A DNA stretch of 64,000 nt from Thermoplasmatales archaeon (lineage in GTDB: Archaea; Thermoplasmatota; Thermoplasmata; Thermoplasmatales; Thermoplasmataceae), in the NCBI GenBank assembly GCA_016806715.1, contig CP060531.1, positions 1,659,966 to 1,723,965 of the forward strand, read 5' to 3'. Below the pieces are notes generated by a model. The model saw only the letters and a list, made by a program, of their open reading frames with translations, was not told the origin of the DNA and ran no database searches. The position numbers were made by a program, and so were the translations under genes. The first letter of the stretch is position 1; every line of letters starts with the position of its first letter. Below, piece by piece: positions 14,773-57,946 of the stretch.

Positions 14773-14777
14773 TCTTT

Positions 14778-36438: not shown

Positions 36439-36457
36439 CATGATCGATTTGCAGCAA

Positions 36458-36991
36458 ATGATATCGTTTGCGACCGCAAACAGCACTACATCATCATCAG
36501 GAAATGTTGAATCTTCGCTTTTCGTGATTGCGATCCTTGTATTGTTTGTAATAAGAAGGGTTTATCGCGGTATAAACGGGAGACAATTTCGTACTTCACG
36601 AGTTTTCATGATCCCTGCCATCTATACTCTGCTTTTGCTTTTTTCTTTCTTCTCAATCGATGTAAATTATCTGTATGATGCCTCGCTCCTTCTGCTGATC
36701 ATTCCCGGAATAGTTTTAGGTAATCGATTTGGCAATACCGTTAAATTTTTCGAAAAGGACAAGCAGATATTTTACAAGCGCTCACAGTTTATCATGGTTT
36801 TCTGGTTGGCGTCGCTTATTGTCAGGGAATCTCTTGTGCTGCTCTTCCCAACCGTTGTTGTGATCCTTCTTGGCGTCGATGCTCTTCTATCACTTACTAC
36901 TGGGCTCATAATCGGGGAGAGTATCCAGGTCCACCATGCATACAGAAAATATGTAGAGAATAATCACACTGACACAGAAACCAGTGAGTAA
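36458..36991 (+). CDS. five-helix membrane protein, CcdC/DUF1453-like
   Basis: 177 residues with hydrophobic segments at about 20-38, 53-70, 75-92, 120-137 and 140-160. A cytoplasmic loop carries FEKDKQIFYKRSQFIMVFW, reminiscent of the CcdC/DUF1453 family. The N-terminus is a Ser/Thr-rich 18-residue tail. The molecular role is unknown. The ATG at 36458 is chosen from the TATA box position; ATG 36440 would lie only 6 nt after the TATA centre. The C-terminal tail is hydrophilic. Confidence 0.65.
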   Translation: MISFATANSTTSSSGNVESSLFVIAILVLFVIRRVYRGINGRQFRTSRVFMIPAIYTLLLLFSFFSIDVNYLYDASLLLLIIPGIVLGNRFGNTVKFFEKDKQIFYKRSQFIMVFWLASLIVRESLVLLFPTVVVILLGVDALLSLTTGLIIGESIQVHHAYRKYVENNHTDTETSE

Positions 36992-37004
36992 CTTGAAGAT
37001 ATAT

Positions 37005-37901
37005 TCAGTTACTGCCGGTGCCCACAATTGATAAGTACTTTTCCTCAATTCCGCTGGACTCTTCAACGTCCCGTATTTTTGCTCCCCTGCTGACGAGGTC
37101 CCGGATAAGCACGTTGTTTGGTGTATCCCTTTCCACGCTGAAAATCGCTGTTTTACCCTCGTCCTCAATTAATGAATCTTTGCCGGTGAAGTCCATAGAT
37201 ACAGGCTCGTAAAAGCGAATACGCAGGCTTTTCTTGACATCATCTAAATCAGAATCATAAACAATTGAACCTTCATCAATTATGATGACCCGGTCACATA
37301 GCTCCTTGACTTCTGAAATGAGGTGAGTACTCAGGAGTATGATGCTTCTTCTTTCCTCTCTTATTTTGTTGAGTGTTCTCCTTATATCAGCCATTCCTCT
37401 TGGATCGAGGCCAAATGTCGGTTCATCCAGTATGATTACATCGGGGTTGTTGATCAGGGCAACGGCAAGTGCAAGTCGTTGCTTCATTCCCCTTGAGTAT
37501 GTTCCAGTCTTCCTGTTCAGGAAGTTTTTGACCTCAGTTATATTGCTGACCCTGTCTATTTCAGAAGTGCAAAATTCCTTGGTGCCACCCTTGATGCGGC
37601 ACACAAACATCATAGTTTCATACGCGGTTAGGTATGTATAGAACTCTGGTTGCTCAATTATGCTGCCAACCGTCCTAAGGGCAATAGAAGGGTCAGCTGA
37701 GACATTTGTTCCGTTGATCAGGACTTCGCCGGTGGATGGCTTGATTATGTTAGTGATAAGTTTCATCAGTGTTGTCTTCCCTGCACCGTTTGGGCCAAGT
37801 AAACCAATGCAACCGTTGGAATTCAGGGAAAGATTCACATTCTTCAGTGCTGCTATACTTCCGTAGTTCTTTGAAATACCTTTAATGTCAATCGAAGTCA
37901 T
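37005..37901 (-). CDS. ABC transporter ATP-binding protein
   Basis: Energises the permease encoded upstream. Walker A is GPNGAGKTT, the signature is YSRGMKQRLALA, Walker B is DVIILDEPTFGLDP and the switch His is in LLSTHLISEV. 298 residues, with the C-terminal ~80-residue extension typical of multidrug/ABC-2 type exporters. The start overlaps the permease stop (TAATG), preceded by GAGGTGA. The transported substrate is unknown; drug or lipid export is usual for the family. Confidence 0.92.
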   Translation of the reverse strand: MTSIDIKGISKNYGSIAALKNVNLSLNSNGCIGLLGPNGAGKTTLMKLITNIIKPSTGEVLINGTNVSADPSIALRTVGSIIEQPEFYTYLTAYETMMFVCRIKGGTKEFCTSEIDRVSNITEVKNFLNRKTGTYSRGMKQRLALAVALINNPDVIILDEPTFGLDPRGMADIRRTLNKIREERRSIILLSTHLISEVKELCDRVIIIDEGSIVYDSDLDDVKKSLRIRFYEPVSMDFTGKDSLIEDEGKTAIFSVERDTPNNVLIRDLVSRGAKIRDVEESSGIEEKYLSIVGTGSN

Positions 37902-38743
37902 TATTTCACCTCTTTTCTGTCAAAGAGTATAAGAGAACCTGCAATTGAAACAACGGTGTAAAGGATCATTACAAGTGCTGCGATTTCCGTTGGTCCGGTT
38001 CCCGCACCATTCAGGGAAATTGAAGTGCTTCCGGGTACTGTGGTGTTGAGATTTATGAAAACCCTTTCGATTATGGAAGCTGCATCGCTAAGAAGGAAGA
38101 AAGCATTGTAATTATAGAGGAAGTCGAGTATTATGTACAGTGCATTAAAAATAAGGTAATAAAGCAGGAAAACAGTGATATATGCATACATGTTCTTATT
38201 GAATATAGAGCTGATCAGGAAAGTGAACGCTGTTATTGAAATTATGAATAAGAGGAGAAGGAGATATGAGTAAAGAAAAACAATACCGGGGAAAGACCCG
38301 AAAAGAATCACATAGCTTAAAATCTCAAATACTATGTAAATGCTGACAATAATATATGACACGATAACGGCAGCAGTAAACTTGCCTATAAGTAGAGTAG
38401 ATCTCCTGATTGGAAGCGGGAATATATGGTAAGCTGTCTTATTTTCTATTTCACTTGAAACAGCCGGAGAACCAAAGAAAACAGCGGAAAAGACCGGGAG
38501 ATATGAGAGTACAAAAGCCCAGAGGTACAGGACCGCGCTCTCCTTTAGAGAAGAAGGAAGTGAGTTAAAAGATGTCCCGGCAAAGGATATGTGAAGGTTT
38601 CCTATGTATTTTAGTGTAAAATACGTCATAAGTGCAGAAATCAGAAGAGAAATGACAAACATCAGGTAAAAGCTTCTTGATCTGTAGTAATTACGAAAAT
38701 ACTGCCACATTACAATACTAAAGTTTCTTGTAACCTGAACCAT
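37901..38743 (-). CDS. ABC-2 type transporter permease
   Basis: 280 residues with six membrane spans: about 18-40, 72-95, 112-138, 145-175, 185-208 and 255-273. ENKTAYHIFPLPIRRSTLLIGKF, a conserved coupling region of ABC-2 permeases, is present. It is followed by the cognate ATPase with overlapping stop and start. A single ATPase and permease pair suggests that a dimer of each forms the exporter. Confidence 0.85.
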   Translation of the reverse strand: MVQVTRNFSIVMWQYFRNYYRSRSFYLMFVISLLISALMTYFTLKYIGNLHISFAGTSFNSLPSSLKESAVLYLWAFVLSYLPVFSAVFFGSPAVSSEIENKTAYHIFPLPIRRSTLLIGKFTAAVIVSYIIVSIYIVFEILSYVILFGSFPGIVFLYSYLLLLLFIISITAFTFLISSIFNKNMYAYITVFLLYYLIFNALYIILDFLYNYNAFFLLSDAASIIERVFINLNTTVPGSTSISLNGAGTGPTEIAALVMILYTVVSIAGSLILFDRKEVK

Positions 38744-39107
38744 AATACATCACTTATTCACGCACCGTGAGTCTTCACGTAAAACTTGATTGCTGTATGC
38801 TTATTAATCATGACTGTACAGTTCTCTGGGAAGGTCTCCTTTTGTTGGGCGTAGAGTTCACCATATGAAGGAAAATGACTCTAACCTCAATGGCATTCAG
38901 TCATGATTACCTGCAGAGTTCATAAACTCCATTTCGATATCGTGCTCAATCATTATCACAAAGGAATTTTTTTAGAAGAAAGTGTATCTTATGATAAAGA
39001 GGGATCAGTATTAGCAATTTATGCCCAAAGCACTCATAAAGAGCATTAAATTTTATTTTTGGGAAAAGGGGTCAAACAATCCAACTTGAAAAGAGTGGAA
39101 TCACATT
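38744..39107. other. intergenic region, no gene seen
   Basis: 364 nt, AT-rich towards 39000-39060. I found no ORF with a supporting start signal, no tRNA and no repeat. It marks the transition from core genes to the accessory stretch at 39-50 kb. Confidence 0.4.
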
Positions 39108-39248
39108 TCAGAAGAATTCGTACCGGTTGACCATGTCCCTCCATTCCTCCGGCTTTATACTAAACTCTCTACATATTTCAGGAACTTCAACACCCTGCTT
39201 CAAAAGTTTTCTTATCCTTTTGACATCCCTTCTCTTAAGTTCTGCCAT
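39108..39248 (-). CDS. 46-residue helix-turn-helix-like micro-protein
   Basis: A short frame with an ATG at 39248, an AGGTGA Shine-Dalgarno 9 nt upstream and a TGA stop. The sequence is basic at the N-terminus (AELKRRDVKRIRKLLKQG), followed by VEVPEICREFSIKPEEW. That pattern resembles the helix-turn-helix of resolvase or transposase DNA-binding domains. It could be an excised DNA-binding module, a small regulator or a transposase relic. It lies between an intergenic region and the unrecognised gene at 39331 on the same strand. Confidence 0.5.
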   Translation of the reverse strand: MAELKRRDVKRIRKLLKQGVEVPEICREFSIKPEEWRDMVNRYEFF

Positions 39249-39330
39249 GGAATTACTTCACCTGAGTTACCAGTGCTATTCCATATCTAATCTTTTCTAT
39301 TTGCGTCCAGGTTGCAGTGAGTCATAAGCT

Positions 39331-40347
39331 TCAGTCGACGATGTTGACAAGCTTTCCCGCGTTTGACATGTTTATCTTCCACTCTGGAAACGTCTTCAGG
39401 GTTTCGGAGATCACCGATAGGAAATTCTGCATTTCCCCTTCAGGCACAACAAAATCCATGGACATCCTTTTACCATCATAACCCTGTACCTTTGAAAACA
39501 TAGGGATAAAAGCCTCTGCGGTCTTCTTCCTGAAAAATTCCAGGACGTCATTTTTTGCTGGTCCTTCATAGAGGTTTTCTCCACCTGAAATTTTATCAAT
39601 ACTACCGTTCAATTGATCTAATGGTGAGTTAACGGCATAGAGTCCTCGAACCAGGTCATCGGAAGTGAATTTGATCTCCCTGATCCATTTGCCAGAAAGA
39701 GGAGGTTCCTCTGCTTTTTTAGAGGACTCAGGAGGCTCACTCTCCAGGGAAAAATAAAACAAGGGAATTCTTTCGTCTATCTTCTTTAAGGTCGAGATCA
39801 ATCCTCCTCCTTTACCAATGTATTCGAGGCTGATCTTGCTCGTTTTCTTTAAAATTGACACAACCTCGTTAGACACTTCTTCCAGAAAATTCCTGTGAAA
39901 TCTCACCCTTGTATATAGGGTGCCATTGTCAAGTGAAATCTCATCCAGAATGACTGATGGTATTTTCAGGAATGATCTAAGGTAGCTGAGTTCATTGATT
40001 ACAGAATCCGAAAGTTCAACGATCCATGTGGATCCCAGATTTTTCGCTCCTATGGAGTCCAGGTAGATCTTCACGTTCCTGTTTTGAGTAAGTTCATTAT
40101 CGAGGAAGAATAAGATGCTGATCTTATTAGCGTCAACAAAGGCAGTGCATGGGACTTTCAGACCCAATTTCTGGCTAAGGTCCAGCAACCCATATTCATC
40201 TCTGAATGCTACGACGCACTGCATGTCTAGAAGTTGATCGACATCTCTGATTAGCATAGGCGTAGTATAGTCTGCACCAGTAAATCTGTTCCACCGGTGG
40301 GAATGAATTTTCTTCGGCATAGTACAAGGGAATCTAACTATTGACAT
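39331..40347 (-). CDS. unrecognised 338-residue protein of accessory region
   Basis: Soluble alpha/beta protein without membrane spans. The N-terminus HSHRWNRFTGADY contains a His/Arg/Trp-rich tract; the centre has alternating strands and helices, and the stretch around 215-225 is Ser/Glu/Pro-rich, probably a linker between two domains (about 1-210 and 228-338). No family or catalytic motif is recognised. Its location next to IS remnants and an integrase remnant suggests it may belong to an integrated element. Confidence 0.5.
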   Translation of the reverse strand: MSIVRFPCTMPKKIHSHRWNRFTGADYTTPMLIRDVDQLLDMQCVVAFRDEYGLLDLSQKLGLKVPCTAFVDANKISILFFLDNELTQNRNVKIYLDSIGAKNLGSTWIVELSDSVINELSYLRSFLKIPSVILDEISLDNGTLYTRVRFHRNFLEEVSNEVVSILKKTSKISLEYIGKGGGLISTLKKIDERIPLFYFSLESEPPESSKKAEEPPLSGKWIREIKFTSDDLVRGLYAVNSPLDQLNGSIDKISGGENLYEGPAKNDVLEFFRKKTAEAFIPMFSKVQGYDGKRMSMDFVVPEGEMQNFLSVISETLKTFPEWKINMSNAGKLVNIVD

Positions 40348-40592
40348 GCACTGTTAGATACCTTGATATTCTGCGGAGTTGACACAATGATTGTGCAGAG
40401 AGAATGGATGCAAAATGAGGATTTTCCTGTATTTGAAATGATTCTTGCTTTCAGCATCTCATCGTAATTCAGGGATTATTGAACATTAGACTGGAATGCA
40501 TTTGTTGACGGTGATCTGCAACAAAAAAGGCGAAATTAATTCATGTTTGCATTAAGGAATTAAAATTTTATATAAATCACTTATTTTGCTAT

Positions 40593-41171
40593 GTGGAAGA
40601 AGACGGTCAGAATGGTTATCATAGCATAATCAAGAGAATAGAGGAAATGAATAGATACCGTGGACTTCTCGAGCTTCAGGAAGAAATCTCAAAGATGCAT
40701 GGTAGGTATCCGTTCTCAGTATACGCAAACATCAAGGGGCGGTTATCGGAAAAACTGAGGGTATTCGAGGATCCTGATTGTGCTGAGGTTGGCCTCAAGA
40801 TACTATTTATGAATGGATCTAGGATCAACGTCGAGGAAGCAGACTGCTTAAACGCAAGAGATCGCGGGATGAAGTTACCAAACTATCTCTTCATAAAATA
40901 CCCAAATGCAGTGGATTTCGAGATTCCATCTATCGCAAAGGGACCGATGAGGCATGTTGAAGTCTCTCATGATGAAGGCGAAACAAAGAAAACCAAGGAT
41001 TTCTACATAGCTGTGGATGTTTTCAAGTCAAGGGTGGAATACATGATTAGACTTGTAGACAGGATGGAAGCACTGTATGCAGGAATGATTCCTGCCATAG
41101 TGGATATAATAAGGGAAATCGGTAAAAGTCTGAGGGAGCTCTACAGGCGGCTTGTTGCTATAAGGGCATAA
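40593..41171 (+). CDS. unrecognised 192-residue protein, leaderless GTG start
   Basis: Helical N-terminus (about 10-65), a middle beta-rich part with LPNYLFIKYPNAVDFEIPS, and a long amphipathic C-terminal helix (about 140-190) that may mediate oligomerisation. No known motif. TATA box TTTATATAAA (40567-40576) lies 22 nt before the GTG, indicating a leaderless transcript. Placement in the accessory segment suggests a mobile-element cargo gene, but that is only context. Confidence 0.5.
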   Translation: MEEDGQNGYHSIIKRIEEMNRYRGLLELQEEISKMHGRYPFSVYANIKGRLSEKLRVFEDPDCAEVGLKILFMNGSRINVEEADCLNARDRGMKLPNYLFIKYPNAVDFEIPSIAKGPMRHVEVSHDEGETKKTKDFYIAVDVFKSRVEYMIRLVDRMEALYAGMIPAIVDIIREIGKSLRELYRRLVAIRA

Positions 41172-41372
41172 ACCGGAGGAGCGGCCACAAAATCGGGTCC
41201 ACGAAACAATCTTTACCAAAATTATTACATCAACTTATAAACCGGCGGAAGTCGGGTCGAAAGGTTTAATCTTTGTTACACTCCAGAGTTCTTTGGCAGG
41301 AACATATCTGGCGTATTCAGCTCATTAAGGAGTACATAACACTTCATAATGGTTTACAGTAAATTCTGAACT

Positions 41373-41876
41373 GTGTATGAGAAACCGGGGATACAGGTCC
41401 TAGAAAGAACGAGAGGATATGTGAGGACAGACGGTGGAAAGGTTGTGAGGGGATTCAAGTACACAAACGGGAGAAACGGCACCTTGAATCTCTTTGCTGC
41501 ACCGAACATAATGACCAGCATGGTAAATTCAAAGACAACTAAGACAAAGAAGAGACCGGACATTCTCAGGGTCGATGAGATACATGTCGTACTTGAAAAA
41601 TACTGCACACATAAGAGACGTGATGAATGGCTGTCGGCACATCCCAATGCGAAATTCCATTATACACCAACATCAGCAAATTGGCTGAACATGGTAGAGA
41701 TATTCTTTTCCATACTTTCAAGAGAAACATTAAAGGGATCAAGTTTCAGAATCACAGATGCACTTTCATAGGCAATAGCTGCATTTGTGAATGAACATAA
41801 CAAAAAGGCAAAACCATTCGTCTGGAGGAAGAGAGATGTAAAGGGTTCTCAACTTAGGAATACTATCGTGAATTAA
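41373..41876 (+). pseudogene. IS630-family transposase remnant
   Basis: The C-terminal part of a DDE transposase of the IS630 type: EKPGIQVLERTRGYV, HVVLEKYCTHKRRDEW and TPTSANWLNMVEIFFSIL carry the last two acidic residues of the DDE triad. Against the family pattern there is an internal deletion between KKRPDILR and VDEIHVVL. A TAG stop at 41769-41771 interrupts the frame, after which it stays open with AIAAFVNEHNKKAKPFVWRK to a TAA at 41876. The N-terminal half is absent, so it is inactive. Confidence 0.8.
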
Positions 41877-41899
41877 CCAATTAAGCACTAGTCAATTCT

Positions 41900-42439
41900 T
41901 CAGGAGAATTTGACATTAAGTGATATCACTTTCTTCTGACCTGGAATATGATAAGGCCCTAACATAGACTCTCCCAATAGTGATATTTTGACTACGCCTG
42001 AACTTGCATTATTCTCCATTATCAATGCATTGAACTGTATAATTATGGTGTATGATCCGTTGGAATTGACGATTTCGAAATGGTGAGTTGTTATGTTTTC
42101 ACCAGATGAAGGGATGTAAACAGCATTAACAATATTCAATGCGCTCCCACTGAAAATTCCTGAAAGATTTTGCCCTGTTTTAATGATATTAACAACAATT
42201 GAGTAATCATAACCATTTGCAACGTGATTATTTGGTCCGTTGATCCACGCAAAATAAGTGGAGTTTGTGCCAAGCGATGAAATCACAAATGAAGCATTCT
42301 CACCAAAGGGATCATAATTCTCTTTGGAGGTTGATATGACAGATGTACGCAGATTTACGGGTTCTGTAGCAATTTCGTAAGAGCTAAGCAATAGAATTAC
42401 TATGATTATTAGTACTCCCACTAAAACTGGCTTTTTCAT
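41900..42439 (-). CDS. secreted or membrane-anchored protein, unknown
   Basis: 179 residues. A Lys-Lys start is followed by a strongly hydrophobic helix (about residues 5-24), then an Asn/Ser/Thr/Gly-rich beta-type ectodomain with several NxS/T sequons. This looks like a surface protein with an N-terminal anchor or signal peptide; there is no lipobox cysteine. No family is recognised. Given the secretion-ATPase/TadC cluster 1.3 kb away, a pilin-like or surface role is conceivable but unsupported. Confidence 0.55.
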   Translation of the reverse strand: MKKPVLVGVLIIIVILLLSSYEIATEPVNLRTSVISTSKENYDPFGENASFVISSLGTNSTYFAWINGPNNHVANGYDYSIVVNIIKTGQNLSGIFSGSALNIVNAVYIPSSGENITTHHFEIVNSNGSYTIIIQFNALIMENNASSGVVKISLLGESMLGPYHIPGQKKVISLNVKFS

Positions 42440-42544
42440 ATTGAAACGTCCGTCATTTTTTACTCATTTAAATCTGTTTATTAGAATTTTGTCATCTTAT
42501 TAACTTACTTTCCGCACTTTTCAAAAGCATTTTTTTTCGAATAA

Positions 42545-42838
42545 TTAAGCCGGCCGGAATCTATTCTCCTCAATGTGCAGGAGGGAGAGTATTTTCCGTT
42601 GTGTATTCGATATATCTGTGCTAACATGCTTTACCTCCATGCCATCCACAAGGATGTGGTTGAGCAGTATGTTGTCGAACTTCGAAAGTATCCTGTATGC
42701 CGTGGTAGATGAACATTCCCTCTCCTCGAAGTACACAGGAATGCTTGAAATCCCCTGATCCTTCATGCTGATCCTCACATCCCTCTCTATCAGTGCCTGA
42801 ATGATCATGGCAACGAAAAAGAGGTAGAGGAATGCCTA
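42545..42838 (-). pseudogene. C-terminal remnant of an IS4/IS1634-like transposase
   Basis: About 98 residues ending at a TAA/TGA-type stop near 42545. The N-terminal stretch AFLYLFFVAMIIQALIERD resembles the hydrophobic segment that follows the EKAF..LK motif in DDE_Tnp_1 transposases, and the rest is the tail. An in-frame stop lies just upstream, so nothing before it is coding. It resembles, but is not identical to, the transposase at 48410-49745, so it derives from a different element of the same family. It abuts the integrase remnant. Confidence 0.6.
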
Positions 42839-42889
42839 TGTGCGTACAACATTCTTGAAAAGCAGGATCAAGAGCATTGAGCCGGTTAG

Positions 42890-43549
42890 AGAAAGGACAG
42901 GATCGAATACCTTCACGAGACCAAGAACAAATCGTTCCGCAAGAAAGCTTTTGATGCTGAGCAGGTTGAACTCCTGGTCAGCAGGACAAACGGGCAGACG
43001 CTTGAGGATAAGAGAAACCACGCAATGATACTGCTTGCGCAGAACACCGGCTTGCGAAGGGCAGAAATCTGCAGCCTGAAAGTCTCCGACGTCCACCGCT
43101 ACCATATTACGGTGATATCAGGGAAGGGAGAGAAAGACCGGGACGTCTACATAGACGAGAAAACACGGGAAACCGTTCTCGCTTATGCAGCGATCAGGAA
43201 CTGCCAGTCGTCGCCTTACCTGTTCACAACTAAGAAGGGTCGGATCACGCCGGAATACATGGGATCCATCGCCCTTGACATCAAGAACAGGACTGGAATA
43301 CAGGAGTTCGGCTGGCACAAGTGCCGCCATACATACGCGAAAAACATGATCAGGAATGACGTGGATCTCGAAACCCTGCGGCAAATGCTCGGTCACGAAG
43401 ACCTTGACACGACGGGCATCTACGCAGAGCTTGATACAGGAGAGGCAATAGAGCGTGTCATGAACAAGAACGTGAAGTTCTACCAAGAGAGAGGAAGGTT
43501 CAAATCCTCCAAACCCTGGACCGATGTCAATGGACTGGCGGGGATTTGA
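42890..43549 (+). pseudogene. tyrosine recombinase (integrase) remnant overlapping tRNA-Ala
   Basis: The catalytic domain of an XerC/D-like or phage/plasmid integrase: TGLRRAEICSLKV (Arg I), HKCRH (His-x-x-Arg), GHEDLDTTGIYAEL (His and nucleophile Tyr). The core-binding N-domain is lost; an in-frame TAG at 42887-42889 precedes the first recognisable residues. An internal ATG at 43025 could give a 174-residue catalytic-domain protein. The last 19 nt of the gene are the antisense of the 3' end of tRNA-Ala, as in elements that integrate into tRNA genes. Confidence 0.8.
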
Positions 43550-43602
43550 ACCCCGGGCCTCTTCCATGCCAAGGAAGCGATCTACCTCTGATCTACCAGC
43601 CC
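43531..43602 (-). tRNA. tRNA-Ala (anticodon GGC)
   Basis: 72 nt forming a complete cloverleaf: acceptor GGGCTGG / CCAGTCC with the G3-U70 pair that identifies alanine tRNAs, D-stem GATC/GATC, anticodon stem CTTCC/GGAAG with loop TTGGCAT (anticodon GGC), and T-stem CGGGG/CCCCG with loop TTCAAAT. Discriminator A; CCA is not encoded. There is no intron. Its 3' end is shared with an integrase remnant, marking it as an integration site. Confidence 0.95.
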
Positions 43603-43763
43603 AGAAAAGCAAGACACCCATTAATAGGAGGTTTTTAAAATTTTGTCATGAATTTCATTTCTAAATGATGTTTATCAACATTCCACGTAAATCAGATAGG
43701 GACATACATTAAATATTTATATGAGGGAAGAGACTATTTGGTGCAACCATGTGAGGGCATAGT

Positions 43764-45272
43764 GTGGAAAAAAATAGTTTTGAACACGTAAACGGGAATG
43801 CTGAAAGCATAACTGTGGAAGATCATTATGAACTCATTCCGCAAACAGTATCGATAGATATAGTCAGGAATGGGGACGGCAATCTCATTTATCGTATCAC
43901 AGAACCTGAAATTTCCCAGGAGTACCGTGAATTCACATCTAAACTTTATAATGAAATGAGATCAGTCCTGCTAAGCAGGCCGAAGTTAATCGGAGGAAAG
44001 CTGACTACATCAGAAATCTTCGAGTATTATCTGAAAAATTATGAACCCGGACTGGACAGAGAGATAAGTGATAAAGTTCTCTATTATTTCAAGCGTGATA
44101 ATGATGGATATGGGGTAATCAATCCAATTGTCATGGATGAGAACATTGAGGATATATCATGTGATGGTGTAAACATTCCAATTTTTGTATACCACCGGAA
44201 GCACGGCACACTACGCACGGAGATAAATTTTACAGATACTGAGCAACTCAACTCATTTGTTATCAAACTGGCAAGCGTATGTGATCAGGAGGTTTCCATC
44301 AATGATCCGATACTGGATGGTACATCTCCAGAAGGTCATAGAATACAGGCTGTGTATGGCACGGAAATATCTCCAAGAGGATCGGCATTCACAGTAAGGC
44401 TCTTTAGAAAGAACCCATTTACGGTGATAGATCTCGTTAAAAATGGCTCCATAAGCGAAGAAATGGCAGTATATCTCTGGTACATGGTGGAGGGCGGATC
44501 ATCTGGAATTGCTGTTGGCCCTCCAGCAGTAGGAAAAACTTCACTTCTCAACGCTATGCTCATGTTTATACCGGAGAACTCAAAGGTGTTCAGCATAGAG
44601 GAGACACGAGAGCTGAATTTTGTTCACGAGAACTGGATTGCCACAATTGTAAGAGAAGGTCGCTTGGATCTTGGACCGGATGAGGAAAACCTGTCAAAGA
44701 TAGACACGTTTGACCTGGTCAGAATGGCGATGAGGCAGAGGCCTACTTACATTGTAGTCGGTGAGGTAAGAGGTAGTGAAACATATTCACTTTTCCAGGC
44801 CATGTCTACTGGCCATACTGTTTACTCAACGCTGCATGCGGACACAATGGACACACTCATAAACCGCCTTGAAAGTGAGCCGATTAACGTCCCGCGTGTC
44901 CTTGCCGTTTATCTTAATGTTGTAATAATAATCAAATTTGTTAGGATCAATAACAGGCTCGTAAGGAGAGTCACGGAGATTGATGAAATAGAAGGCATGG
45001 AAGAAGTTGGTCACGGGTTGATTTATAACCAGGTTTTTAAATATGACCCCGTGCATAACACCCATGTATACAACGGCCAGAGCAACGTTATATCTAAATT
45101 CATTAGACTGCGGAAATATTCCGATAATGAATTCGAGAAAGATTTCAAGCGAAGGATAGATCTGATAAGAAAACTGGCAAAGTCAGGAGATTCCGACATT
45201 TCGAGCGTGAACGAGGCAATTCATGAGTTCGGCAGACAGGCCAGGGTAAAGAGGGGGGCGGATTCCATTTGA
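43764..45272 (+). CDS. type IV pilus/Tad-type secretion ATPase (GspE/VirB11 family)
   Basis: Hexameric ATPase that would drive assembly of an archaeal pilus or secretion system. 502 residues: N-domain about 1-220, Walker A GPPAVGKTS (252-260, a variant of GPTGSGKT), Asp box FSIEETREL, Walker B-like PTYIVVGEVRG (328-337) and His box STGHTVYSTLHAD. The GTG start follows GTGAGGG about 6 nt upstream, and a TATA element lies near 43713-43722. It is followed by two TadC-like genes and a second ATPase, the first junction using an overlapping TTGA. No pilin or prepilin peptidase is next to it. Confidence 0.88.
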   Translation: MEKNSFEHVNGNAESITVEDHYELIPQTVSIDIVRNGDGNLIYRITEPEISQEYREFTSKLYNEMRSVLLSRPKLIGGKLTTSEIFEYYLKNYEPGLDREISDKVLYYFKRDNDGYGVINPIVMDENIEDISCDGVNIPIFVYHRKHGTLRTEINFTDTEQLNSFVIKLASVCDQEVSINDPILDGTSPEGHRIQAVYGTEISPRGSAFTVRLFRKNPFTVIDLVKNGSISEEMAVYLWYMVEGGSSGIAVGPPAVGKTSLLNAMLMFIPENSKVFSIEETRELNFVHENWIATIVREGRLDLGPDEENLSKIDTFDLVRMAMRQRPTYIVVGEVRGSETYSLFQAMSTGHTVYSTLHADTMDTLINRLESEPINVPRVLAVYLNVVIIIKFVRINNRLVRRVTEIDEIEGMEEVGHGLIYNQVFKYDPVHNTHVYNGQSNVISKFIRLRKYSDNEFEKDFKRRIDLIRKLAKSGDSDISSVNEAIHEFGRQARVKRGADSI

Positions 45273-46225
45273 AGCCAGGAATATTGGGCAGGATCAGCAC
45301 TTACGGAAAGGGAATATTAGGGGAAACGGCGAAAAACAAGAATACAGGTCTTCCAGCAGGTCAGACAAACATTTTCCTGTCTACGTCGCTCCGGATATTC
45401 GGAGGAATATACCGGAAATACCCGGCGTTCCGGAGCCTGGAAGTGGAATTGAAGAAGTCAAAACTGGCAATGACCCGAGTTCAGTATCTATCACTTTATT
45501 CGCTTTATTCCATTTTCTTTATAATTGCTGAATCAATCGTTGCAGTTCTTGCTTACATTCTTACGGGATTCTACCCGGCATTGATATTCATTTCGGCTCT
45601 CCTCGTGTTTGTGTTGTGGTGCTTAAGTCTGCTGTATTACCCCACGTCTATATCACATTCCAGAAAGAAGGACATTGATGCAAAACTGCCAATGGCAATA
45701 GGATATATCTCTTCCATGGCATCCGCCGATATCCCTATTGACAGGATTCTATCGGATCTGGGCAAGCTTGACCTGTATGGGGAAATATCAAAGGAGGCAA
45801 ATTCGATAACAGTGATGACTGACTTATTTGGAATGGATATACTTGAGGCCATTAAGGAAGCATCCAGGTTCAGCCCATCAAGAAAATTCTCTGAGTTTTT
45901 ATCCGGAATAGGCACAACAGTGAATTCCGGGGGGAATCTCAGGAATTACCTCATCGGGAAAGCGAGACAGTACAATTCTGAACTCACCATTGGTATAAAG
46001 AGAAACGTGGAATCCATAGGAGTACTTGCTGAGAGTTTCATAACCGTAGGGGTTGCATTTCCGCTGATGTTGATGATAATTGTAGGCGTTATTGCAGTCC
46101 TCGCACCATCTCCGCCTCTGAACCTGGTTCTGTTCCTTATATTCATAGTTGCTTTTATAATACCCGTAATAACTGCAGTGTTCACTATATTCATCAGGAG
46201 TACGCTCAGGGAGGTTGAATTTTGA
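45269..46225 (+). CDS. TadC/FlaJ-like membrane assembly protein (T2SSF domain)
   Basis: The membrane platform partner of the ATPase. 318 residues: a soluble N-terminus of ~70 residues, two spans at about 73-120, a cytoplasmic T2SSF-type helical domain (about 128-245; DAKLPMAIGYISSMASADIPIDRILSDL is the typical beginning), and two spans at the C-terminus (about 252-305). TTG start overlaps the ATPase stop by 4 nt (TTGA), implying translational coupling. Confidence 0.82.
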   Translation: MKPGILGRISTYGKGILGETAKNKNTGLPAGQTNIFLSTSLRIFGGIYRKYPAFRSLEVELKKSKLAMTRVQYLSLYSLYSIFFIIAESIVAVLAYILTGFYPALIFISALLVFVLWCLSLLYYPTSISHSRKKDIDAKLPMAIGYISSMASADIPIDRILSDLGKLDLYGEISKEANSITVMTDLFGMDILEAIKEASRFSPSRKFSEFLSGIGTTVNSGGNLRNYLIGKARQYNSELTIGIKRNVESIGVLAESFITVGVAFPLMLMIIVGVIAVLAPSPPLNLVLFLIFIVAFIIPVITAVFTIFIRSTLREVEF

Positions 46226-47055
46226 AGAACAGCCGGGAATTGATCGTTTACGGTTCATTCGGTTTTGTTGTAATTCTTCTCATTGTGGGTGTAATACTTA
46301 GGATTCACTACTTCGACATCCTGATAAACCCGATTGCAGCTATTGCAATTCTGCTGATCGGGGCGCTGACTCCATATGGATTCTATAAGTATGTGCAGAG
46401 GCAGACGATTACGGAAATGGAGCGGAGACTACCTGATCTACTGAGGGACATTGCAGAGTATTCAAATTTTGGATTGCCGGTATCACAGGCTCTGGCTCGA
46501 GCAGGTAACAATGACTATGGACATCTTTCGCAACTCGTAAAAGCCATTTCACTAAAGATAGAAGCGGGAACTCCGGTAGAAGAGGCTGTTCTATCATCTG
46601 AGAATACGGTAGATTCCAAGGTTATCAAGAGGGCATTCACGGTACTCAGGAAGGCAACAGAATCCGGGAATAATGTGTCAGAAGTACTCAGGTTGATCTC
46701 AGAGTTCACTGGTGAGATAGAAGTCATAAGAGAAAGCAGGATCTCTGAGATGAAGAACTTTGTTCTTGTCATGTATGTGGCTTTTGCAGTATTCTTTTTT
46801 GTGGTGCTGGCAATTGATTTGGCATTTATTCCAAAGGTCGGCGAGGCCAATTTCTCCCCTCTTGGATTCGATTCCCAGACAGTCAGCGCTTCACTTATAA
46901 AGAGGATATTCAGCGGAGGCATCATTGTTCAAGGAGGAAGCACCGGGCTAATGTCCGGAATCCTCAAGGATGGAACTTTCGGCACCGGAGCTTTCTTCAC
47001 AGGAATAACGCTTCTTGTCACTGTTATAGCTCTTGGAATTTTCGGGGTGCTTTGA
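46222..47055 (+). CDS. second TadC/FlaJ-like membrane assembly protein
   Basis: 277 residues: two N-terminal spans (about 8-28 and 32-52), a T2SSF domain with ERRLPDLLRDIAEYSNFGLPVSQALARA and a repeat-like second helix bundle, then a membrane span (about 173-195) and a C-terminal span (about 256-277). Its start is a TTG overlapping the previous stop by TTGA, and the next gene begins with TTG immediately after its stop. Paired TadC-type subunits recall TadB-TadC of Tad pili, which form a heteromeric platform. Confidence 0.82.
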   Translation: MKNSRELIVYGSFGFVVILLIVGVILRIHYFDILINPIAAIAILLIGALTPYGFYKYVQRQTITEMERRLPDLLRDIAEYSNFGLPVSQALARAGNNDYGHLSQLVKAISLKIEAGTPVEEAVLSSENTVDSKVIKRAFTVLRKATESGNNVSEVLRLISEFTGEIEVIRESRISEMKNFVLVMYVAFAVFFFVVLAIDLAFIPKVGEANFSPLGFDSQTVSASLIKRIFSGGIIVQGGSTGLMSGILKDGTFGTGAFFTGITLLVTVIALGIFGVL

Positions 47056-48561
47056 TTGGACATCACTAATCCTGACCTTGTTAAAATTGAGAGAGGAGAC
47101 GATGACCTGTCATTTCGTGAGATCGAACCCGGAAAAGTGTATTCCAGGATCCTGATAGACCGGGATTCAGGTAGAATTGTATACGAACTCATTGAACCAC
47201 AAATGGAGCAGAGGCTTCAAACGGTGTACAGTAAATATGTAAAGCAGTACATGAATAGTGGAAACCGATCAGTGATCAATATAAGCCTGGAATCAGGCAG
47301 TGAAAACGGGAAAAAACCTTTGCCAACGGACATATATCTGGATCAACGCGACGCTGATGTTGTCAGATATTATGTGGAAAGGGACGTTTCAAGATATGGC
47401 AGAATAACAGGTTTGCTTCTTGACCCGGATGTTGAGGATATTTCATGCGAAGGTGCAATGAAAAAAATATACGTTTTCACGAAGGAATATGGGTACATTG
47501 CTACGAACGTAATTTTCAATGATGACAATGATCTTAATTTCTTTATCAGGAAGATAGTCCAGGATTCAGGGAAGAATATATCAATCGCAGACCCTATTGT
47601 TGACAGCACGTTATCTGATGGATCAAGAATACAGGCTTCCATTGGAAACTACGTCACGGCTTCGGGGCCTGCGTTTTCAATACGAAAATTCAGGAAAGAG
47701 CCATTCACGCCACTTGACCTTATACGGCTCGGTACCGCATCTGCTGAAATTTTTGCTTATCTCTGGCTCTGCATAGAATATGGAAGCAATATAATGGTGA
47801 CTGGAGGAACTGCATCCGGCAAGACAGTCATGCTAAACTCAATCCTACTCTTCATACCGCAGAACCTGAAGATCATAACAATTGAGGATACCCGTGAATT
47901 AAGACTCCCTCACGAAAACTGGCTTTCACTTGTATCCAGGGAGGGGATCGGTAAAAACTACCCAGTTACAGGTAAAAGAACCGGCGAAATAGACATGTTT
48001 GATCTCTTAACCGCCTCACTCAGGCACAGACCAAATTACATCGTGATAGGTGAAGTGAGGGGGAGAGAGGCTTTCACCATATTCCAGGCCATGTCTACCG
48101 GAAGGTATGGGTTGGCAACATTTCATGCAGAAGATATCAGCACACTTATACACCGCCTTGAGTCAAAGCCTATAAACATCCCAAGAAGCCTCATCGGGTC
48201 TCTTGACGCAGCAATCGTTATGGGCAACTTCGTTTTCAAGGGTGAAACGAAGAGGCGTGTCAAGGCAGTTTCGGAGATTATGGACGTTGACAGCCACCAT
48301 GGGGAAATGACAGTCAACAACGTGTACTCCATAAACACAGACGACACGTTCAAGTCCTCGGAATTCAGCTATTTACTGGCGAAAATAGGTAACAGGTATG
48401 GGATAGAAGTTGGGGTCATGGACAGCCTCACGATGAGTGAGAGGAAAAGGATGAACACAAGGCCCCTTATGGTGGAAGGTTTCCTCTCCCTGAGAGGAAA
48501 TATGTCCAGATCTGATTTCAGGATCTCAAAGGCTTTCTCCACACGATCCTTGTCCCGATAG
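47056..48561 (+). CDS. second secretion ATPase (GspE/VirB11 family), C-terminus replaced by IS sequence
   Basis: A paralogue of the ATPase at 43764: Walker A GGTASGKTV (about 250-258), ITIEDTREL, PNYIVIGEVRG (about 327-336) and the His box STGRYGLATFHAED. TTG start directly after the preceding stop. Up to about residue 453 (near 48410) the protein follows the family. The remaining ~47 residues are the reverse complement of a transposase gene, because on the minus strand this DNA encodes YRDKDRVEKAFEILKSDLD and the following hydrophobic tract. The normal C-terminal helices are therefore missing; activity is doubtful although all nucleotide-binding motifs remain. Confidence 0.82.
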   Translation: MDITNPDLVKIERGDDDLSFREIEPGKVYSRILIDRDSGRIVYELIEPQMEQRLQTVYSKYVKQYMNSGNRSVINISLESGSENGKKPLPTDIYLDQRDADVVRYYVERDVSRYGRITGLLLDPDVEDISCEGAMKKIYVFTKEYGYIATNVIFNDDNDLNFFIRKIVQDSGKNISIADPIVDSTLSDGSRIQASIGNYVTASGPAFSIRKFRKEPFTPLDLIRLGTASAEIFAYLWLCIEYGSNIMVTGGTASGKTVMLNSILLFIPQNLKIITIEDTRELRLPHENWLSLVSREGIGKNYPVTGKRTGEIDMFDLLTASLRHRPNYIVIGEVRGREAFTIFQAMSTGRYGLATFHAEDISTLIHRLESKPINIPRSLIGSLDAAIVMGNFVFKGETKRRVKAVSEIMDVDSHHGEMTVNNVYSINTDDTFKSSEFSYLLAKIGNRYGIEVGVMDSLTMSERKRMNTRPLMVEGFLSLRGNMSRSDFRISKAFSTRSLSR

Positions 48562-49745
48562 AGATCAAGGCACTCAATTGGACCGTATTTCCCCTGTAGA
48601 CCAGCATGAAACGGCCCATGCGGTTCTCCCTCTGTGATATGGCATTGTTCCTTGCCTGTGCATGGTACTTCCCGTCCTTCACCGTGGTTCTTATGTATCT
48701 GTAATATTCTCCCGCCATGGACCGGACCTGTGCGATCTGGGCAGGTTTCTTCTCCTTCGGCTTCGTTTTCTCAATGGTATCCATGACCTCCCTGATGTGT
48801 CTGTGGAAATTGGTTCTTTCCCGTGCTTCCAGATCAAGGTCATGGTAGAGGTACCCCTCCAGGCCAAGACCGTCAATGGTAAAATCCACATGCATCGCGA
48901 ATATGGGCCTGCCGCTGTAGAGGATTGTGTTATCTGCGGAATCCAGCCTCCTCATGCCGGCGGAGAATACATGCTTTACCTCCTTTCTTGAGTACGTTGC
49001 AGAGATTATGTATTCATGTTCGTGGAGTACCTTAAGATTGTCAAGGGAGAAGAAGCCGCGGTCAAGGATGATCACAACTCCGGTGACGAGATTCCTGATC
49101 CTTTCCACTGTTACCCTTAGGGTGGAAACATCCACAATACTCCCCGGGTATATCTCGAACAGTATGGGCAGGGATCTTCTCCTCTCCATTACAAGGGATA
49201 GATTGATCTGGGGAAGATCGCCATGATCCTTTGCATGACCATACTCGAACATGCTGTTTCCGGAATACGATGCAATGGTCGTTATATCGTACAGGAGAGA
49301 GGATTCCGCCTTCATGCGTGATGAGAAGGCGGAGAAGAACCTGTCCGGTATATTGCTGTTACCTATGTCCTCCAGCAGGCGGATATGCGCTGCGAAGATG
49401 GATCACATGGGTATTCCTGGCCAGGTAGGTTCCCTCATACATGTGTGCACTAATCCATGGGAGTGACTTATTGCCGGGCAGCGGCAAGTACCAGGATAGT
49501 GTTCCTGTCCTCCTTCCCGAACATTGATCAAGGATCTTCTCAATGCCCATCTCCTGATGATTCGCAGCACGGGTATGAAGGGCCGTAGACGAAGATGTTC
49601 TGGGCAGGTGCATCCGGCTTTTCAATGCCCTTTTCCTTCTGCACGCCAAGTACTGCTGTATACCTGATTTCTTTTTCTCCCTGTCCCAGTATGGCGTCAT
49701 CTCGTAGAATATTCCTGCATTGATCGTCTTTTTCTTGTGTAACTG
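48410..49745 (-). pseudogene. decayed IS4/IS1634-like transposase, inserted in ATPase gene
   Basis: DDE_Tnp_1-type transposase with several frameshifts. Recognisable blocks from its N-terminus are YWDREKKKSG, then in another frame VLGVQKEKGIEKPDAPAQNIFVYGPSY, then MGIEKILDQ, then MFGKEDRNTILVLAA, then HIRLLEDIGNSNIPDRFFSA. The long frame to 48518 has YEYGHAKDHGD-like catalytic Asp tracts (MFEYGHAKDHGDLPQ, IILDRGFFS). After a further shift comes YRDKDRVEKAFEILK with the DDE glutamate. The C-terminal tail (~90 residues) is absent. The 3' part is antisense to the second ATPase gene. Non-functional. Confidence 0.85.
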
Positions 49746-49748
49746 TTC

Positions 49749-49773
49749 AATATATACCTAATAGGTATATATT
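49749..49773. promoter_or_regulatory. 25-bp near-perfect palindrome with TATA boxes facing both ways
   Basis: Arms AATATATACCTA (49749-49760) and TAGGTATATATT (49762-49773) are exact inverse complements around a single A. Each arm contains a TATA-like ATATATA. It lies at the upstream end of the decayed transposase, so it may be that element's promoter or terminal structure, and it faces the ATPase remnant on the other side. The TACCTA-TAGGTA core recurs elsewhere in the window. Confidence 0.5.
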
Positions 49774-49777
49774 ATTT

Positions 49778-50004
49778 ATGTTTCGGTTCAGAAGAGTGAG
49801 CATTACCAGTGGTTTCACAAAGATTCTGATGGATCATGTACTAAAAAGGGGGTTCAGGTGGAAAGGGACGTCAGAATTAGGAAAAATATACTGGAGGAGA
49901 TGATTCGCAGGAATATGACAACCTATGGTGAATTCACCAATCTGATCTTCTCATTTTATCACGACAGGGACGCGGTCATAGAGAGTTTCAAGGCTGATAG
50001 ATAA
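49778..50004 (+). pseudogene. C-terminal remnant of a further secretion ATPase, frameshifted
   Basis: Frame 1 from ATG 49778 gives ITSGFTKILMDHVLKRG. After a one-base shift in the A5G5 run at about 49843-49852, a second frame gives KGVQVERDVRIRKNILEEM, then MTTYGEFTNLIFSFYHD and an end at TAA 50004. This matches the helical C-terminus of archaeal TadA/FlaI-type ATPases (E-x-R..IL..M....I..Y.EF...I..YY.D). The first part aligns without gaps over 18 residues with SEFSYLLAKIGNRYGIEV of the second ATPase, so it is from a paralogue, not simply the displaced end of that gene. The second frame alone, from GTG 49858 behind a GGGGGT tract, could encode a 48-residue peptide. Confidence 0.55.
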
Positions 50005-51291
50005 TCAGATTCTAGGCCCTTCACTGGTGAGACGCTTTACTATAAATGGCGTATAAATTGTCTGAAGCACTATTGATATTATTACTACAAAGGAAACACC
50101 GACATATATGGGCTGCCCATACTTTATCAAAATTGGGATACCTTCCTGGACTCCAAGCACGTATGGGATAGTGGACAGGACGACGGAAACCACTCCCCTG
50201 GGACCGACCAGAGACATAAACAGCTTCACCCGGTTGTTAATGGGATGCTTTGAAAATTTGCGGTTGATCACTGAAAGTGATGAGAATACTGCAATAGGTC
50301 TCGATATAAAAATTACCCCAAGAGCCAGTGCTATTCCCATTGGCAGGAAATCAATCAGATTGGACCTGGTGAGTATGCTCCCAAGTAGAAGAAAAATTAT
50401 AGATTGAAACAAAAATGACAGGTTTTCCTGAAAACCTTCCTCCCTGCTCCAGAAGATACTCTTGTCATTAAAGTTACCAACGATCGCACCTGTGGCTATT
50501 ATCGCAGGGAAGGGAGTTATTCCGGAAGCCTCCATTATAGTGAACTCGAGTATGACTATACCCAACAACAGCCCTACAATAAGGCTCTCAAAGTTCAGGT
50601 ATTTGTTGAGGTATATTACGCTGAATCCGATTGCAATACCGATCAGCGCTGGAACTGTTATCTGCATCAATAAAAATGTAACTGATCCAAGATAGATGCC
50701 TATATGGCTTGAAATTGCAGAGAAGAGCTGCACATCGCCGGAGGCTGGAGCAACAAAGGCGAGGCCAATCGTGAAGAGAATTATGCCTAGCGGATCGTTG
50801 AAAAGGCTCTCCCCAACAAGAGTGCCTGAAATGTTTTCATTTACGCTGATCCTTCTGAATATTGGTATCAGGCTTGCGGGGTCTGTTGGCGAAATTATGG
50901 CTCCAAATAGAAACCCGATGATGAGTGGTGCCCCGGTGAGGAGGGAGAATAGAAGTGCGGCTATGATTGCCGTTATGGTAATGCCCAGAGTATCAAGGAT
51001 AGCTATGGGAAGGAACTGTCTCCTTAGGACCCTCAAGTCTATGTGATGGCTCTCCGAATAAAGGATAATGACGATGCCCAGCAAACCGATGCCCACCGTT
51101 CCGAACTCTGACATCAGGTATATTGAGAAACTGTTGCTTATAATCCCCAACAAGGGTCCGAACATTATTCCCAGAACTATAAGGATCGGTATGTAGGCAA
51201 TCGTCAGTTTCCGGGAGATCGGTATAGCGAAAGCTGCCAGAATGAAAACGAAACTAATCTGATAATACTCATAGGCAAATTGTGACACCAT
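50005..51291 (-). CDS. CPA1-type Na+(K+)/H+ antiporter (NhaP-like)
   Basis: 428 residues, about twelve membrane spans. FGAIISPTDPASLIPIF (transport core with the TDP motif) and GTLVGESLFNDPLGIILF (the ND motif of electroneutral CPA1 antiporters) are present, then GPRGVVSVVL near residue 365. Ions are exchanged across the cytoplasmic membrane for pH and Na+ homeostasis; the cation is not predictable. There is no cytoplasmic regulatory C-domain. Its stop abuts the ATPase remnant on the opposite strand. Confidence 0.9.
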   Translation of the reverse strand: MVSQFAYEYYQISFVFILAAFAIPISRKLTIAYIPILIVLGIMFGPLLGIISNSFSIYLMSEFGTVGIGLLGIVIILYSESHHIDLRVLRRQFLPIAILDTLGITITAIIAALLFSLLTGAPLIIGFLFGAIISPTDPASLIPIFRRISVNENISGTLVGESLFNDPLGIILFTIGLAFVAPASGDVQLFSAISSHIGIYLGSVTFLLMQITVPALIGIAIGFSVIYLNKYLNFESLIVGLLLGIVILEFTIMEASGITPFPAIIATGAIVGNFNDKSIFWSREEGFQENLSFLFQSIIFLLLGSILTRSNLIDFLPMGIALALGVIFISRPIAVFSSLSVINRKFSKHPINNRVKLFMSLVGPRGVVSVVLSTIPYVLGVQEGIPILIKYGQPIYVGVSFVVIISIVLQTIYTPFIVKRLTSEGPRI

Positions 51292-51307
51292 TCACTTTAT
51301 CTTCCTT

Positions 51308-52036
51308 TTACAGCAAGGATTCCGGTTTCCTCCTCTTATGTTCTGACGATTGTATGAGTTCATTCACCCTTTTCTCGACGTCATTGGAAGGGCTTCCTCT
51401 GGAATTTATTAGTCTGTCCAGTGCCTTATCTATGTCCGGGTATTTCAATCCTAGTTCGCTCTCGTCTGTCTGTCCAGCCCAGAGACCCGCACTGGGTGGC
51501 TTGGTGACAATGCTGTCAGGTACGCCAAGGGAACTGGCCATGTCCCAGACTTCGGTTTTCGACAGGTGTAAGATTGGTTCAATATCGCAACCGCCATCGC
51601 CGAATTTCGTGAAGTAACCTGTATAATATTCACTCCGGTTCGTGGTTCCAACTACCAGGCCGTTGCTGACGTTTGCAAAATAATACAGGGTGATCATCCT
51701 GATCCTGGATTTGACATTGCCAATTATCCTTGTATCACTCATTTTGAGTGTTCTGGAAAAGGCGGATAATATTTCATGAATATCAATAATGTCTATTGGA
51801 ACGCCGGTTGATATCGAAAGGTCCCTGACATCATCTGCCTCTTTTTCAGCAGGATTCCCGTCCGGCAGGAACAAAGCCCTTATTCTTTTCCGTTCTATTG
51901 ATATTGAGAGGAGCTTCAATACCAGTGCACTATCAACTCCTCCGCTAATACCTATAATTGCTTGTTTTCCGGATAAGTGCGTGTTCAGAAAAGTTCTAAT
52001 TCTCGCGACCGGTTCGGAAAATTGTGCAGAGTTCAC
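51308..52036 (-). CDS. nadE: NAD+ synthetase
   Basis: Amidates nicotinic acid adenine dinucleotide to NAD+. 242 residues, ammonia-dependent form without a glutaminase domain. The PP-loop IIGISGGVDSAL, LFLPDGNPAEKE, VVGTTNRSEYYTGYFTKFGDGGCDIEPI and KPPSAGLWAGQTDESELG are the expected motifs. GTG start at 52036 with TATA AACTTAAATAAAT at about 52056-52068, 27 nt upstream, so leaderless. It is followed by the antiporter gene after 17 nt on the same strand. Confidence 0.95.
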   Translation of the reverse strand: MNSAQFSEPVARIRTFLNTHLSGKQAIIGISGGVDSALVLKLLSISIERKRIRALFLPDGNPAEKEADDVRDLSISTGVPIDIIDIHEILSAFSRTLKMSDTRIIGNVKSRIRMITLYYFANVSNGLVVGTTNRSEYYTGYFTKFGDGGCDIEPILHLSKTEVWDMASSLGVPDSIVTKPPSAGLWAGQTDESELGLKYPDIDKALDRLINSRGSPSNDVEKRVNELIQSSEHKRRKPESLL

Positions 52037-52121
52037 AGACAGACTTATCCCTGAAACTTAAATAAATATTTTCGATTATATATCTAAGCAGGCTTGAATG
52101 CATGTTAAGGTATAACTGTTT

Positions 52122-52976
52122 TTACTTTTTGTTGAATGAATTCTGATACTCTGTCGCCTTAACAGTATTTTCCATGATCTGAGTTGCTGTTATTGGCCCA
52201 ACCCCACCAGGAACCGGGGTTATTGCTCTTACATACCCGAAAAGTTCCTCATAGTTTGCATCTCCTCTTATGCCACCATCAACAGGATTTATACCGACAT
52301 CCACCACGATACTGTCCTCTGTCACGTAACTTCTGTCTATAAAATTCGGGGTTCCAACTGCTGTAACAAGAACCTGGCTGTTCCGGGATATACTCCTGAT
52401 GTCACCTGTTTTTGAATGACACACAGTAACGGTGAAGTCCCGGTTCAGGAGCATCAATGCAAGTGGTTTACCGACGATCGGGGAACGATTTATTATGGTC
52501 GCTGTTGTTCCACCGGGTAGATGCAGTTCAGTCAATATTTTCGTGACTGCCGCAGCTGTAGCGGGAGTGAGGAATTCATTTTTCAGGGCTATCATTCCCT
52601 GGTTCGTTGGTGTCATGCCATCAACGTCTTTATAGAACGGAATACTTTCAACTGCCTTGAAGAAATCAAGATGTTTCGGTAGTGGGTTCTCGATCATTAC
52701 TCCATTGACATCACTCATTCCGGAAATGTTTGCAATTTCTTCGTTTAAGGCTTCATAGGTGATATTCTCATCCAGTATCTTATGTGACACCTTAATGCCG
52801 ATCTTTGCCCCTCTACGTATTTTTGCCCTTACGTAGGTCTCGATTGCCTCATTCCTGCCAACCTGAATCAGGAAAAGATGGGGCTCAACTCCATGCGATT
52901 TGAGCGCTTCTACCCTGCCCTTCAACGCCTTGATTATACTTTCCGCTATTGGTGTTCCATTTAGGATTACGGTCAT
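52122..52976 (-). CDS. folD: methylenetetrahydrofolate dehydrogenase/cyclohydrolase
   Basis: Interconverts 5,10-methylene-, methenyl- and formyl-tetrahydrofolate. 284 residues with YVRAKIRRG (active-site Tyr and Lys; the usual spacing Y-x-x-x-K is kept), MIENPLPKH (variant of VQLPLP), KDVDGMTPTNQG, INRSPIVGKPLALML and TPVPGGVGPITATQIMENT. The N-loop change from Q-L-P to E-N-P is mild. ATG is 4 nt after the stop of the glucose dehydrogenase gene, so the two are co-transcribed. Confidence 0.94.
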   Translation of the reverse strand: MTVILNGTPIAESIIKALKGRVEALKSHGVEPHLFLIQVGRNEAIETYVRAKIRRGAKIGIKVSHKILDENITYEALNEEIANISGMSDVNGVMIENPLPKHLDFFKAVESIPFYKDVDGMTPTNQGMIALKNEFLTPATAAAVTKILTELHLPGGTTATIINRSPIVGKPLALMLLNRDFTVTVCHSKTGDIRSISRNSQVLVTAVGTPNFIDRSYVTEDSIVVDVGINPVDGGIRGDANYEELFGYVRAITPVPGGVGPITATQIMENTVKATEYQNSFNKK

Positions 52977-52980
52977 TATT

Positions 52981-54072: not shown

Positions 54073-54119
54073 TATTTGCTATTTCAAAATAGTATTAAAA
54101 GATGGCACTTCTTCAGGTC

Positions 54120-54165
54120 ATATCAAGTTCAGGTTACGGTTTCCGTTAACCATGTTAACTTCGAC
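54120..54165 (-). ncRNA. predicted 3' part of TnpB guide (omega) RNA / IS607 right end
   Basis: On the minus strand, just past and overlapping the tnpB stop, two alternative hairpins share bases: GTTAAC-ATG-GTTAAC (54145-54159) and GGTTAACGG-AAA-CCGTAACC (54132-54151, one bulge). TnpB omega-RNAs of IS605/IS607 elements run through the tnpB 3' end into the element's right end, with the guide taken from flanking DNA. If that holds here, the guide would read downstream from about 54131. The 5' limit of the RNA is not determined. Confidence 0.45.
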
Positions 54166-55982: not shown

Positions 55983-56031
55983 GGTTAATATAATATATAC
56001 CATAAGTATATTTAGTTATACTTTTGCTTAA

Positions 56032-56610: not shown

Positions 56611-56677
56611 ATATTTCCCTGAATAAATTGATTCATGCTATTAAAATATTTATAACTATTATTTTCATAAATAGTCA

Positions 56678-57931: not shown

Positions 57932-57946
57932 ACCTATTTAGGTATG
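57929..57946. promoter_or_regulatory. 18-bp inverted repeat in the purC / methyltransferase divergent promoter
   Basis: CATACCTA-TT-TAGGTATG has 8-bp exact arms. It overlaps the methyltransferase start codon and lies 45 nt before purC. The ACCTA/TAGGT arms are shared with the palindrome at 49749-49773, and CCTAATAGG at 33574-33582 has the same core. A candidate operator; a chance AT-rich symmetry is possible. Confidence 0.4.

Follow-up and report, generated by a model that had tools for sequence, protein, structure and literature searches.

An integrase remnant overlapping a tRNA-Ala(GGC) gene in a Thermoplasmatales archaeon: probable scar of an integrative element with its attachment core inside the integrase gene

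What left an integrase fragment that ends inside a tRNA gene, and do the genes beside it belong to a mobile element? The fragment lies in a stretch of 64,000 nucleotides (hereafter the window) of a Thermoplasmatales archaeon whose genome consists of one contig of 1.96 Mb and whose family includes Ferroplasma. The window contains an intact tRNA-Ala(GGC) gene on the minus strand (43530-43603, ARAGORN), the attachment gene (attB), and, on the plus strand, a frame of 219 codons (42890-43549) encoding the catalytic domain of a tyrosine recombinase of the phage integrase family (PF00589, E 1e-25), in which alignment identifies the full set of catalytic residues (Arg, Lys, HxxR, His and Tyr; R-K-HxxR-H-Y). 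As the initial annotation had noticed, this integrase ORF, stop codon included, covers 19 nt of the tRNA gene on the opposite strand, counted from the discriminator base at 43531 (20 nt from the gene end given by ARAGORN). Its TGA stop codon (43547-43549, plus strand) belongs to the antisense strand of the tRNA T-loop. The att core, TGGACTGGCGGGGATT (43531-43546, plus strand), forms both the terminal 16 nt of the tRNA gene and the final codons of the integrase ORF. The limits of this core were set by the direct repeats of four relatives (G019, G031, G012 and G028) and the attR of a fifth one (G056), and in relatives the core ends immediately 5' of the integrase TGA. The overlap of 19-20 nt is found again in several other genera and is therefore not due to chance.

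The integrase gene of the window is not complete. It is 70% identical to the intact integrase of G019 (296 aa), with which it can be aligned only from residue ~80; the first ~79 residues are missing and a search for the N-terminal (core-binding) domain upstream of position 42890 gave no match, in agreement with the loss of this domain deduced earlier. The truncated 5' side abuts an IS remnant, also anticipated by the initial annotation, which corresponds to the C-terminal part of an IS1634-family transposase (42545-42835, minus strand), although the match to the last ~72 residues of NF033559 (positions 411-482 of 483, E 2.7e-5) is weak and under the curated cut-off. The simplest reading would be that one deletion took away the 5' portion of the integrase gene together with that of the IS1634 gene. 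Further left are the C-terminal remnant of an IS630-family transposase (41373-41771, plus strand; PF13358, E 1e-9; NF033545, E 5e-16) and an ORF of 179 aa (41900-42439, minus strand) that belongs to no family and has distant relatives in three other genomes only; it is possibly a leftover of the element or a later arrival.

We looked for the best matches to the remnant among 60 related genomes. These matches are also located at tRNA-Ala(GGC); where the frame is intact, the integrase gene extends 19-20 nt into the tRNA gene, and full-length genes encoding integrases of 293-297 aa are present in the integrated elements of G019, G031 and G054. Among 41 readable tRNA-Ala(GGC) sites, 15 exhibit an integrase trace beside the core at E <= 0.01 and 26 do not; G003 was moved to the first group by a separate match to a 36-aa tail, giving 16 sites with a trace and 25 without. 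The pairing between the integrase and the tRNA gene is thus mobile, and the sites free of integrase, which the initial annotation had suggested looking for, do exist in relatives, as also indicated by the comparison of G015 with G031. In G003, directly left of tRNA-Ala, a tail of ~36 integrase-like codons is in frame with an adenine methyltransferase-like fragment (identified by eye only). Another unusual frame is present in G010 (L056, 395-1315), where the integrase frame at tRNA-Ala crosses the entire antisense of the tRNA gene; this tRNA gene contains additional G residues in the acceptor/T-arm region, possibly corresponding to a sequencing error.

This distribution bears on the idea that no integration scar is involved and that the chromosome has domesticated the integrase gene and retained it beside the tRNA. 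The 219 open codons and the conservation of all catalytic residues are in line with domestication, but the start and the N-terminal domain have been lost, the arrangement is missing in most relatives and the genome owns a separate XerA-like recombinase gene (at 1192077), all of which makes domestication very improbable.

The existence of an integrated element is more directly visible from a second copy of the 16-nt core, exact or with one mismatch, on the integrase side of the tRNA gene, 24.1 kb away in G019, 13.4 kb in G031 and 6.28 kb in both G012 and G028, the latter two corresponding to Ferroplasma. G012 and G028 reach 97% identity precisely at this distal core. Furthermore, G031 holds 15.4 kb that are absent from its congener G015, with alignable flanks on both sides, and G015 retains an alignable integrase tail of ~56 bp. 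Additional integrase sequences are located outside of the distal cores, i.e., a second fragment of the integrase in G028 and remnants of another integrase subfamily in G012 and G031, so that elements have been stacked repeatedly at this tRNA gene. Outside the 41 sites, contigs of four MAGs (G001, G002, G020 and G048) start exactly at the att core, and in G020 the end and the start of a contig overlap by 127 nt at the core, suggesting that the assembly met two alternative left neighbours in a population in which some sites are occupied and others empty.

In the genome of the window itself, no second copy of the 16-nt core was detected with 0-1 mismatch, and patterns of 21 nt (up to three mismatches) and 16 nt (up to two mismatches) only retrieved other tRNA-Ala genes and unrelated matches with two mismatches. 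The second copy of the tRNA 3' end predicted by the initial annotation is therefore absent from the genome for which it was predicted and present as a direct repeat in G019, G031, G012 and G028, with one half of the repeat in G056. The att duplications in these relatives and the 25 bare sites speak against the situation named beforehand as contrary to a scar, i.e., no att duplication anywhere and the same arrangement in all relatives.

An att core within the integrase ORF and a partial protein are also what would be expected from an SSV-type (type I, suicidal) integrase split upon integration, the other fragment being located at the far end of the element. Several observations make this extremely improbable: the att core is at the extreme 3' end of the gene, past the catalytic tyrosine; G019, G031 and G054 keep a whole integrase gene when the element is integrated; the N-terminal loss in the window meets the IS1634 fragment and not an att site; and the domain present is PF00589, whereas suicidal families contain PF16795. 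Neither a 5' att nor a split into Int(N) and Int(C) is observed. The feature in the window very probably corresponds instead to the tRNA-proximal end of a decayed integrative element, one of a Thermoplasmatales family directed at the tRNA-Ala(GGC) 3' end, in agreement with the scar with an embedded att site proposed initially.

How this element would have integrated and decayed can be tentatively reconstructed. The free circle would bear attP within the last codons of the integrase gene, and would recombine with the terminal 16 nt of the tRNA gene, so that the tRNA gene is intact at the integrase end and the opposite end bears only a core copy; the integrase of the integrated form would then be shortened at the TGA provided by the antisense of the T-loop. 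Later, the element body and the distal att would have been deleted, together with ~79 codons from the start of the integrase gene, leaving IS1634 and IS630 fragments in the gap. The order of these decay events is our reconstruction. With the element body, the distal att and the 5' codons of the integrase gene deleted, the remnant should be dead. Three observations fit a scar less well: the frame is still open for 219 codons, which could reflect recent decay or some retained use; no distal att copy was detected in this genome; and the element body has gone, and with it any sign of its former size and nature.

Which of the neighbouring genes came with the element? The initial annotation had proposed either the region from 39 to 43.5 kb or the pilus cluster on the other side as decayed or captured cargo, and both flanks turn out to be syntenic in genomes without the element. 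On the left, the chromosomal flank (36440-41171) encodes a 183-aa ORF, an ABC ATPase, a permease, a protein of the Ta1207 family and a 192-aa protein. All genes of this segment are syntenic in G003 and the DNA alignment to G002:C8 extends to position ~41170 of the window; the 39-43.5 kb proposal was consequently rejected, since genes up to 41171 are syntenic in these two congeners. On the right, the T2SSE/pilus-type cluster (43764-59304) is the ancestral neighbour of the tRNA gene, being syntenic at the same tRNA in many genera whether the integrase is present or absent, and was rejected as cargo because it adjoins the tRNA in genomes without integrase. On this comparison, neither the pilus cluster nor the ABC/Ta1207 genes are cargo. 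Synteny with the congeners G002 and G003 leaves a variable zone at 41172-43549 only, to which the putative scar is confined. Because both flanks are syntenic and the genome lacks a second core, this scar would amount to ~2.4 kb, its cargo having been lost unless the 179-aa ORF remains of it.

The genes between 36.4 and 41.2 kb could still be the cargo of an older element inserted at the same tRNA and common to the genus. They adjoin the tRNA gene in the g1 genomes and are not found at the equivalent position in G019, in which the gene that terminates at position ~36419 of the window marks the point where the shared flank is joined. Nevertheless, there is no att copy on their far side, none of them is a mobile-element gene and they occur in G000 (the genome of the window), G002 and G003 with a chromosomal level of divergence, so that we consider an older element rather unlikely.

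Within the right flank, the segment 43764-48561 encodes two T2SSE-type ATPases (502 and 501 aa), with ORFs of 318 and 277 aa between them, apparently corresponding to a duplicated pilus-type motor module conserved at this tRNA across the order. A truncated DDE_Tnp_1 transposase (48518-49315, E 1.8e-5) is also present in this pilus neighbourhood, overlapping the 3' end of the ORF of the second T2SSE ATPase.

As a scar, the feature is ordinary; the more interesting part is the wider design of the integrase. We rebuilt attP by joining the core on the integrase side to the sequence located past the distal core. The integrase of the integrated form terminates with ...GLAGI followed by the TGA antisense to the T-loop. 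In the rebuilt circles, the integrase frame extends past the core by 16 codons in G019 and G012, 10 in G028 and 23 in G031, and its new stop overlaps the start of an ORF of 54-56 aa common to these four elements (in G028, the stop is located 2 nt before that start). The 54-aa ORF located beside a distal core, used as a probe without reference to the core, picked up the contig G056:C59, in which an exact core, the fifth one, is present just before the small ORF; the ORF of G056 has a frame problem. No such distal small ORF was found in the genome of the window, the small downstream proteins gave no confident family match and the 54-56-aa proteins lack a CxxC motif.

The same design is present in elements located at tRNA-Gly in G038 and tRNA-Pro in G010, with ATGA stop/start overlaps, and a tRNA-Glu scar in the genome of the window also exhibits integrase read-through, its next ORF being less clear. 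The C-terminus of the integrase differs between the circle and the integrated form in the rebuilt Ala, Gly, Pro and Glu junctions. Since the integrase frame reads through the core in the circle, integration exchanges the tail of the integrase and leaves the small gene at the opposite end of the element, and we infer that it may alter the behaviour of the integrase or the expression of the next gene. It is conceivable that this constitutes an integration switch within the integrase gene. The circle would carry the integrase gene and the small gene as one overlapping operon running through attP; integration would replace the last 10-23 residues of the integrase by a stop derived from the tRNA gene and cut the small gene off from the integrase promoter, such that the small protein or the integrase tail would act only in the circle. 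If so, one of them could be, for example, a directionality or copy-control factor of the circular state. We offer this circle-only operon tentatively, as a testable idea.

The intact elements encode HTH proteins as well as membrane and secreted proteins; two of the three also have serine recombinases, and the two larger elements encode P-loop ATPase-like proteins. A P-loop protein of 394 aa from the G031:C74 element matches phrog_22963 (E 5e-34), whose function is unknown. Scans of viral contigs, for which the integrase sequence, an alignment of it and the HTH protein were used, found no relatives, nor did searches of phage records for the ATPase (tblastn) or the HTH protein, and all matches of the integrase to plasmid and phage records are below 60% identity (about 27-36% among the matches listed). 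The G031:C74 element may correspond to an undescribed archaeal virus or plasmid.

The arrangement is not restricted to tRNA-Ala. Integrase ORFs entering the 3' end of a tRNA gene were identified at Ala, Gly, Pro, Cys, Asp and Lys genes and, in decayed form, at two tRNA-Glu genes of the genome of the window, i.e., at seven tRNA identities in Thermoplasmatales, and are distributed among four integrase clades, well supported in the tree (the Ala clade of the window, Ala/Cys/Asp, Asp, and Pro/Gly/Lys). In one further clade, the integrase ORF stops 42-76 nt before the tRNA gene, and an integrase of this clade, from G055, does not exhibit the read-through design. The sample consists of genes matching in the search of the 60 relatives, so these frequencies are biased. 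For eight other tRNA-linked integrases, no distal att was detected within about 20 kb (less at contig or stretch ends).

Of the two tRNA-Glu loci, the one at tRNA-Glu(CUC) (L193, G000:C1:235000-252500, 12909-16771) carries a C-terminal integrase remnant that extends into the 3' end of the tRNA gene, whereas a second integrase copy, 3.2 kb away, ends in a 15-nt att copy; this is another scar, with tandem integrases. At tRNA-Glu(UUC) (L194, G000:C1:605000-621800, 15667-16118), an integrase remnant is present at the 3' end, its frame being broken before the tRNA gene, and a second att was not detected over the 16 kb examined.

A recurrent att core at the 3' end of the integrase gene, found at many tRNA genes of an order whose mobile elements seem little described, provides a rule that helps to locate element ends and decayed scars in Thermoplasmatales genomes. 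The passages found in two recent papers on islands of acidophiles or Ferroplasma are silent on att sites at tRNA-Ala. In some bacterial elements, attP is located near the 3' end of the integrase gene or overlaps it, and we therefore present the design as a variant only. It resembles the integration-dependent immunity of mycobacteriophages, in which attP is located within the 3' portion of a gene and, after integration, a stop at attL shortens the product, in some cases at tRNA 3' ends (PMC8092301), but the gene concerned encodes a repressor there and an archaeal integrase here, and no degradation tag is seen. In pleolipoviruses, a CDS located between the integrase gene and a CxxC gene spans attP and is complete only in the circle, and a small downstream gene is likewise parted from the integrase gene upon integration (PMC7911831); there, however, a separate CDS spans attP, whereas here it is the integrase ORF itself, and the tests made revealed no relationship between the downstream proteins. 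Archaeal integrases are classified as split (type I) or intact (type II) (Badel et al., 2021; PMC8371274), and the searched text of this work contains no mention of Ferroplasma or of a core within the integrase gene. As in type II integrases (pNOB8/XerA-like), we observe a PF00589 domain, a tRNA 3'-end target, a nearly intact integrase gene in the integrated form and a short core, other archaeal att sites measuring 8-60 bp (PMC8371274); unlike in type II, the core is inside the integrase ORF, and the last codons and the stop of the integrated gene come from the tRNA gene. As in SSV-type integrases, att is located within a gene that is altered by integration; in these, however, the att site is in the 5' part and splits gene and enzyme in two, Int(N) and Int(C) (PMC8371274), whereas the exchange described here leaves the catalytic domain whole and affects only the C-terminal tail. 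The design would thus stand between the two classical archaeal integrase types, split and intact.
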